Notes under the pieces: generated by a model
Told to the model about the DNA's origin: nothing
The model's database searches: none
The model's input: only the letters and a program-made list of their open reading frames with translations
NCBI GenBank assembly: GCA_021800275.1
Contig: JAJYZB010000004.1
Location: forward strand, 1-64,000
Direction: 5' to 3'
Length of the DNA: 64,000 nt
Origin: a bacterium
GTDB taxonomy: Bacteria; Vulcanimicrobiota; JABDET01
Program-made: the position numbers and the translations under genes
Shown here: positions 10,321 through 10,405 of the stretch, in pieces
Numbering within the stretch: position 1 is the first letter of the stretch
How the letters are laid out: each line of letters opens with the position of its first letter

Positions 10321-10405
10321 ATTTTTGAGGGGTGCAGGTTCGGAGAACCAAACTTAATCTTTCATCCCGTGTAGGTTCTCCGGGTCAGGGCAACCCCTCA
10401 AAAAT
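10321..10405 (-). ncRNA. Structured RNA with paired ends, possible Y-RNA analogue or leader
   Basis: The gap between the ubiquitin-like and TROVE genes folds strongly. Bases 10321-10333 and 10393-10405 are perfectly complementary over 13 bp (GAGGGGT core). Inside, 10341-10349 pairs with 10374-10382 over 9 bp (CGGAGAACC with GGTTCTCCG), leaving a 24-nt apical loop. An alternative small hairpin (GGTTC/GAACC at 10337-10349) competes with the inner helix. Y RNAs bound by Ro proteins have exactly this overall plan: 5' and 3' ends paired in a long stem with an internal loop and a large apical region. It could equally be a regulatory leader for the TROVE gene, whose ATG is about 40 bases downstream. 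The strand follows the operon; the antisense would fold too. Confidence 0.6.

Follow-up and report, generated by a model that had tools for sequence, protein, structure and literature searches.

The element at positions 10321–10405 of the window, i.e., of the whole stretch of 64,000 nucleotides analyzed here, appears on sequence evidence to encode a genuine, evolutionarily conserved noncoding RNA of Y-RNA type, read on the minus strand from 10405 to 10321, with its expression being inferred. We consider it very likely (probability roughly 0.84) that the minus strand gives rise to this small RNA, either as a component of, or in parallel to, an operon of the order Ubl-like (ubiquitin-like) ORF, RNA, Ro60-like gene, GX and E1, that it would be processed to an RNA of ~85 nt and that it docks on the Ro60-like protein encoded next door. 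Transcription, processing, binding and a gating or tethering function are all inferred.

Structure and conservation of the RNA element

The sequence-only reading had described a perfect 13-bp end stem, an internal loop, a 9-bp inner stem and a 24-nt loop, and all of these are present at 10321–10405. The arms ATTTTTGAGGGGT and ACCCCTCAAAAAT form the perfect 13-bp end pairing, CGGAGAACC and GGTTCTCCG form the inner stem of 9 bp, the apical loop comprises 24 nt and the internal loop is asymmetric. If the family alignment is considered, the outer helix continues for two further base pairs past a bulged U, which leaves loops of 7 and 5 nt. The putative RNA is divided as follows:

10405 to 10321, minus strand: Y-RNA-type RNA of ~85 nt, based on fold, covariation and a match of the RNA model R1 (10402–10323)
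10390–10405, minus strand: outer helix, 5′ arm; 13 bp, bulged U at 10392, two further bp; partner 10321–10335
10383–10389, minus strand: internal loop, 5′ side, CCUGACC (7 nt); family consensus CCCUGACC
10374–10382, minus strand: inner helix, 5′ arm, CGGAGAACC, 9 bp; partner 10341–10349
10350–10373, minus strand: apical loop, 24 nt, starting with UACA, which is conserved in the 17 sequences of alignment A3
10341–10349, minus strand: inner helix, 3′ arm, GGUUCUCCG; based on fold and covariation
10336–10340, minus strand: internal loop, 3′ side, AACCU (5 nt); family consensus GACUU, then G
10321–10335, minus strand: outer helix, 3′ arm; register from the family alignment

The minimum free energy amounts to -38.0 kcal/mol on the plus strand (z -5.37) and to -35.8 kcal/mol on the minus strand (z -4.98), and on neither strand did any of 200 dinucleotide shuffles fold as well. 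Since a palindrome folds on either strand, the strand, on which the sequence-only reading had made no statement, was settled from relatives. The adjacent gene lies on the minus strand and the relatives' elements read on the strand of their gene, thus the RNA is taken to run from 10405 to 10321. In addition, A3 comprises 22 G-U cells vs. 3 A-C cells, an excess that favors the strand of the gene (minus).

Elements of the same plan were found upstream of homologues of the 545-aa protein encoded next to the window element, and 24 of them were delimited. They consist of an outer helix, a 5′ loop of approximately CCCUGACC, an inner helix of 8–9 bp, UACA, a variable apical part, the returning arm of the inner helix, GACUU and the closing arm of the outer helix. 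The window RNA departs from this plan in its 3′ loop, which reads AACCU instead of GACUU. T-arm-like inserts (GGTTCGAATCC) occur in the apical part of several relatives, for example L020, and some of the relatives' elements score as tRNA in Rfam. No tRNA-like module is present in the window RNA, the apical part of which is a plain loop.

Alignment A3 comprises 17 of the 24 delimited elements; L025, L015–L018 (test set), the third copy in L010 and the long one in L014 were excluded. Within A3, 85.5% of the cells are paired, compared to 67.1% after shuffling, and double-sided changes affect 15 of the 17 pairs. The covariation score is 0.597, a value reached by none of 500 shuffles (0.249, sd 0.027), while sliding the pairing yields 0.14–0.20. 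The four nearest sequences alone are 97.7% paired and show double changes in three pairs, all of the outer helix. In alignment A8, made of 50 model matches, 89.8% of the cells are paired (60.6% shuffled), all 17 pairs in both helices carry double-sided changes, and the covariation score of 0.821 compares to 0.255 (sd 0.017) for shuffled and at most 0.211 for slid pairings. However, the script that supplied most of the A3 rows demanded pairing of the inner arms, and A8 was fitted to the model, so that the covariation partly leans toward the structure; kinship furthermore inflates the shuffle test. Much of this is answered by the slid control and by the outer helix, which was not a selection criterion. 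Taken together, these data demonstrate that the two-helix structure is conserved by compensatory changes. A covariance analysis of homologous loci had been proposed along with the Y RNA idea, with a lack of compensatory changes in relatives as a refuting outcome, and the result turned out to be the opposite.

The Ro60-like neighbor and its gene cassette

The genes and sites around the RNA are the following:

8644–10281, minus strand: 545-aa protein of divergent Ro60/TROVE fold, composed of a HEAT-type ring and a vWA domain, assigned by profile and predicted structure
10408–10608, minus strand: 66-aa ORF with the C-terminus ..VVRPSAVFG; ubiquitin-like nature inferred from position, size and C-terminal Gly
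7374–8669, minus strand: GX, 431 aa, with an OB-like N-terminal domain, a strand-rich module with a near-invariant Cys246 (AGICL) and a helical C-terminus; E2-like by topology, unconfirmed
6784–7377, minus strand: ThiF/E1-type adenylating enzyme, 197 aa (PF00899); Cys152 conserved in 22 of 22
10701–10715, no strand assigned: CRP-type palindrome TGTGAAATTTTCACA, a possible operator located ~90 bases ahead of the Ubl-like ORF
6201–6821, plus strand: CRP-family protein encoded at the distal end of the cassette, inferred to be a candidate regulator

At its gathering score, Pfam TROVE (PF05731) does not match the 545-aa protein, for which only weak vWA matches were obtained, and a PF05731 search of the whole source genome delivered nothing. 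A profile of 16 homologues (A4) compared against PDB sequences found human RO60 (E 4.6e-7) and two TROVE proteins (~3e-5). Aligned by hhalign with seven canonical TROVE proteins, the same profile extends over 391 columns (probability 98.6, E 1.2e-15), and LHIKP of the 545-aa protein comes to lie over the canonical LAHVKS, a position that we assign to the Y-RNA face of Ro60. The AlphaFold2 model (pLDDT 80.2, pTM 0.72) consists of a HEAT-type ring and a vWA domain that span the whole length. Ranks 1–12 in Foldseek are all Ro60/TROVE/Rsr (best E 7.2e-12), and so are ranks 1–10 in VIA (Z 21.0 over 434 residues, rmsd 4.0), where the best non-Ro match reaches Z 15.0 and covers the vWA part only. The vWA metal site (DxSxS, T, D) is kept: D355, S357, S359, and D439 occur in all 16 sequences of A4, and position 417 is T in 14 and S in 2 of them. 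As judged by these profiles and the predicted structure, the 545-aa protein is a divergent Ro60 and distantly related to the human Ro60 autoantigen.

The RNA model R1, built from A3, finds the window RNA with 60.1 bits and has no other match in the source genome. Outside its training set it matches L029 (43.9 bits), L025 (34.9), L015 (33.5), L018 (22.9), L016 (22.1), and L017 (19.8), although the elements of L015–L018 and L025 had been spotted by eye before the search. Among 149 genomes of the phylum, 13 are R1-positive at E <= 0.01, and the Ro60-like protein occurs in 17 at E <= 1e-10; an eighteenth is G050, in which merely a fragment of 42 residues at a contig end matches. All 13 RNA-positive genomes fall within these 18 protein-positive ones and none of the 131 others is RNA-positive (Fisher p 5e-15, with the genomes not being independent). 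The five other protein-positive genomes (G008, G011, G014, G017, and G020) are the source of the weaker R1 matches. In the small fetched loci of some paralogues (L005, L007–L009, L012, L021, L024, and L026) no R1 match is present. Thus, the RNA tracks the Ro60-like protein across the phylum. The proposal of a Y RNA analogue made by the sequence-only reading is supported by this co-occurrence, the covariation and the Ro60 fold of the neighbor; its statement that the element lies directly upstream of a Ro60-like gene holds with regard to the fold, yet not in terms of Pfam TROVE, which is blind to the protein. The RNA is most likely the partner of this divergent Ro60, while binding itself is inferred.

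Relatives of the Ro60-like protein were detected at 27 IMG/VR loci as well, 10 of which are R1-positive at E <= 0.01, with 18 matches altogether (L068 and L069 being near-duplicates). Of the GenBank phage records, 357 match a canonical TROVE protein and a single one contains a relative of the window protein, namely the 595-kb record of an uncultured phage (LR756511.1, L115), which gave seven R1 matches at E <= 0.01. These matches lie near its Ro60-like gene, and some overlap tRNA-like sequences. The presence of ROT/TROVE proteins in some jumbo phages is noted in PMC7824862.

The cassette was surveyed by iterated profile searches in 20 bacterial stretches (19 Ro-centered, one centered on an unlinked RNA) and in the 27 viral loci, with counts limited by contig ends and the 3-kb viral flanks. 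The Ubl-like ORF, the Ro60-like gene, GX, and E1 occur together in 12 of the bacterial stretches and 6 of the viral loci, and five of the 20 stretches (L102, L108–L111) possess the Ro gene without the other three. Hence, the cassette of Ubl-like ORF, RNA, Ro60-like protein, invariant-Cys protein and ThiF/E1 recurs in bacteria and phages. The paralogous Ubl/Ro/GX/E1 cassettes L095, L097, L098, and L099 are R1-negative in the small loci L005 and L007–L009.

Based on its profile match, the E1 identity of the ThiF-type gene is firm (PF00899, 99.9 bits, cut-off 28.1). Members of the 66-aa ORF family carry Gly at the C-terminal column in 27 of 28 cases and Arg60 in all 28. No Pfam or PDB profile match was obtained for this ORF, so that its nature as a beta-grasp Ubl is an inference. 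Cys246 of GX is found in 28 of 29 sequences, the exception being cut by a contig end. The predicted GX model (pLDDT 76, pTM 0.49) has a helix-4 strands-Cys-helix topology, and fold searches led to OB-type and helical matches, of which the best in Foldseek, proteasomal ATPases (E 4.6e-4), correspond by our reading to the OB-type domain of these proteins. An identification of GX as E2 lacks support from these searches, as no E2 appeared in the fold lists or in Pfam and PDB profile searches; calling GX E2-like is an unconfirmed inference from its predicted topology. PADLOC and PHROGs provided no trustworthy name for GX or the 66-aa ORF. The search for CRP-type palindromes revealed one, with 0.13 expected, and CRP-family genes adjoin the cassettes of L093 and L097–L099, too. 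Positions 566–6176 of the window encode a DabA-type inorganic carbon transporter, its Proton_antipo_M partner and a PII-like protein.

Kinship to known Y RNAs and rival explanations

Scanning the window with Rfam at the gathering score, and positions 10200–10700 at E <= 10, yielded only a tRNA-Met elsewhere and chance-level matches. YrlA (RF02553, gathering score 69 bits) matches neither the window nor, at E <= 10, the surroundings of the element, and exceeds its cut-off in none of the 18 protein-positive genomes. Sub-threshold YrlA matches occur in 17 of these 18 but in 13 of 14 control genomes as well and are thus mostly tRNA cross-matches. At canonical TROVE loci, the matches of R1 did not exceed chance, and a second model built from A8 (R2) gave no match beside 12 such loci at default filters. 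If R2 was applied unfiltered to 401 bases around the RNAs of L030, both ranked first, with weak scores (11.8 and 6.9 bits). These two RNAs (L030, 1268–1414, same phylum) lie upstream of a canonical TROVE gene and, with 35.7 and 27.2 bits, approach the cut-off of the nematode sbRNA model (38). In seven loci, the RNAs next to canonical TROVE genes were read; they follow the same plan as the window family, and five of the seven loci match YrlA below its cut-off. As read by eye, the RNAs of L030 and L118 carry ACUUG in the 3′ loop, as the family does.

Compared to YrlA and its Rsr protein (for bacterial Ro60 and Y RNAs see PMC7790460), the window RNA shares the location beside a gene for a Ro60-fold protein, the closed ends and the two helices around an asymmetric internal loop, and the tRNA-like module recurs in many of its relatives. 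It differs by lacking this module and any RF02553 match itself, and by a partner protein outside Pfam TROVE. The canonical examples that were read show UUAYC after the inner helix, whereas the window family has UACA. Vertebrate Y RNAs and nematode sbRNAs (RF00019, RF01656) resemble the window RNA in their bulged lower-stem architecture; this lower stem is the Ro60 binding site of Y RNAs according to PMC4726728. However, neither model matches around the window element at E <= 10, and only the canonical-TROVE RNA of L030 comes near RF01656. The RYPER particle of Deinococcus radiodurans (Rsr-Y RNA-PNPase) likewise unites a Ro60-fold protein with a Y RNA, with a possible ring-to-machine tether, but the partners in the window cassette are the Ubl-like ORF, GX, and E1 and not the RNA ligase/cyclase genes found beside Rsr (PMC7790460). 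Since the Rfam models for YrlA and sbRNA fail and the match to canonical Y RNAs is weak, a Y-RNA-type variant is indicated rather than a member of YrlA. We call the window RNA a new variant that would work like a Y RNA, a call made from comparative data without expression or binding data.

Does a free RNA exist at all? The element occupies the space that separates two co-oriented ORFs and lies 2 bases past the stop of the 66-aa ORF and 39 bases ahead of the start of the 545-aa ORF. A search of the minus strand between 8500 and 11200 revealed no sigma-70-like promoter, and no terminator-like site was predicted at the 3′ end of the element or on either strand there. Lacking such a promoter, the RNA of the source genome may be released by cleavage of the operon mRNA, and the same observations would fit a cis-acting leader or processing hairpin of the Ubl-Ro60 mRNA, such as an autoregulatory site to which the Ro60-like protein binds, without any free RNA. 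We regard this as unlikely, given where the copies are located. Two or three tandem copies occur at several relatives' loci. Of 28 R1 matches examined, 20 share a contig with a Ro60-like gene and one (G050:C618) adjoins a Ubl-like ORF at a contig end, but seven (G005:C298, G028:C691, G032:C119, G038:C87, G044:C62, G016:C9, and G050:C725) lie on contigs whose retrieved part contains neither the Ro gene nor the cassette. At the viral locus L070, both R1 matches are on the strand opposite the Ro gene. Copies that are in tandem, unlinked or on the opposite strand favor an RNA acting in trans, and the tRNA-like inserts between the conserved arms speak against a mere leader as well. The leader role that the sequence-only reading had left possible is consequently unlikely as the sole function, while an additional one is not excluded. 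Four of the unlinked matches (L061–L064, i.e., G032:C119, G038:C87, G044:C62, and G016:C9) carry tRNA-like inserts away from any Ro gene; in G016:C9, a YrlA match of 46.4 bits, below the cut-off, coincides with the R1 match, and a second R1 match adjoins it.

Alternatively, a structured RNA of the cassette might merely resemble a Y RNA and serve, for instance, as guide or substrate of the E1/Ubl-like part. The E1 and Ubl-like genes of the cassette and the weakness with which covariance models join the element to canonical Y RNAs are compatible with this idea. Nevertheless, we find it improbable, as R1 matches adjoin a Ro60-fold relative without visible Ubl, GX or E1 (L015, L017, L018, and L025), and the L030 RNAs upstream of a canonical TROVE gene share both the two-helix layout and the 3′ ACUUG. 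The perfect 13-bp terminal inverted repeat with its A/T ends is, in addition, reminiscent of a mobile, dispersed palindrome (MITE) or of a simple transcription terminator, an explanation to which we give hardly any credence. The element is present as a single copy in the 2.46-Mb genome, which rules out a dispersed repeat of MITE type; no terminator is predicted there on either strand, compensatory changes affect both helices, and the element tracks one protein family.

Proposed role and significance

For the Y-RNA-type small RNA docking on the Ro60-like protein, we envision that its closed-ended lower part, consisting of outer helix, asymmetric internal loop and inner helix, would be the docking site. 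The apical part would represent a variable module, i.e., a plain 24-nt loop here and a tRNA-like insert with T-arm in many relatives. Located on the outside of the Ro60 ring, the RNA may control the access of RNAs or partner proteins, with such gating or tethering being inferred.

One might further speculate, and this remains a doubtful hypothesis, that the Ro60-Y RNA particle acts as sensor or specificity subunit of a ubiquitin-like tagging system of bacteria and phages. The RNA would then dock on the divergent Ro60 ring and bring RNA-binding targets to the E1/GX relay, or it would gate tagging up to its displacement by aberrant RNA. Bacterial Ubl-E1-E2 operons (Iyer et al., 2006; BilABCD; the PADLOC E1-E2 models) likewise combine a ThiF/E1 with a small protein bearing a C-terminal Gly, and the window E1 resembles the E1 part of the PADLOC models (E 4.6e-13). 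In contrast to these operons, the window cassette also comprises a Ro60-like protein and an RNA, and its Ubl and E2 are unconfirmed by sequence search. Passages of PMC11354881 describe bacterial Ubl operons without a Ro60 link, and a term search of PMC1779556 found neither vWA nor Ro60 mentioned. In the open-access papers searched, which do not include the main Y RNA papers, we found no description of the cassette or of a Ro60-Ubl link, so that a prior description is possible.

The finding would add to the Ro60-Y RNA particles a protein clade overlooked by Pfam TROVE and RNAs overlooked by the Rfam models, and Ro60 surveys based on those models consequently undercount them. Being close to a minimal form without a tRNA-like part, the window RNA may help to establish which portion of a Y RNA Ro binding requires. 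What we find most interesting is the recurring company of the RNA in a Ubl/E1-type cassette common to bacteria and phages: the recurring Ubl-like ORF, invariant-Cys protein and E1 suggest a concrete connection of Ro RNPs to protein tagging in both that can be tested.
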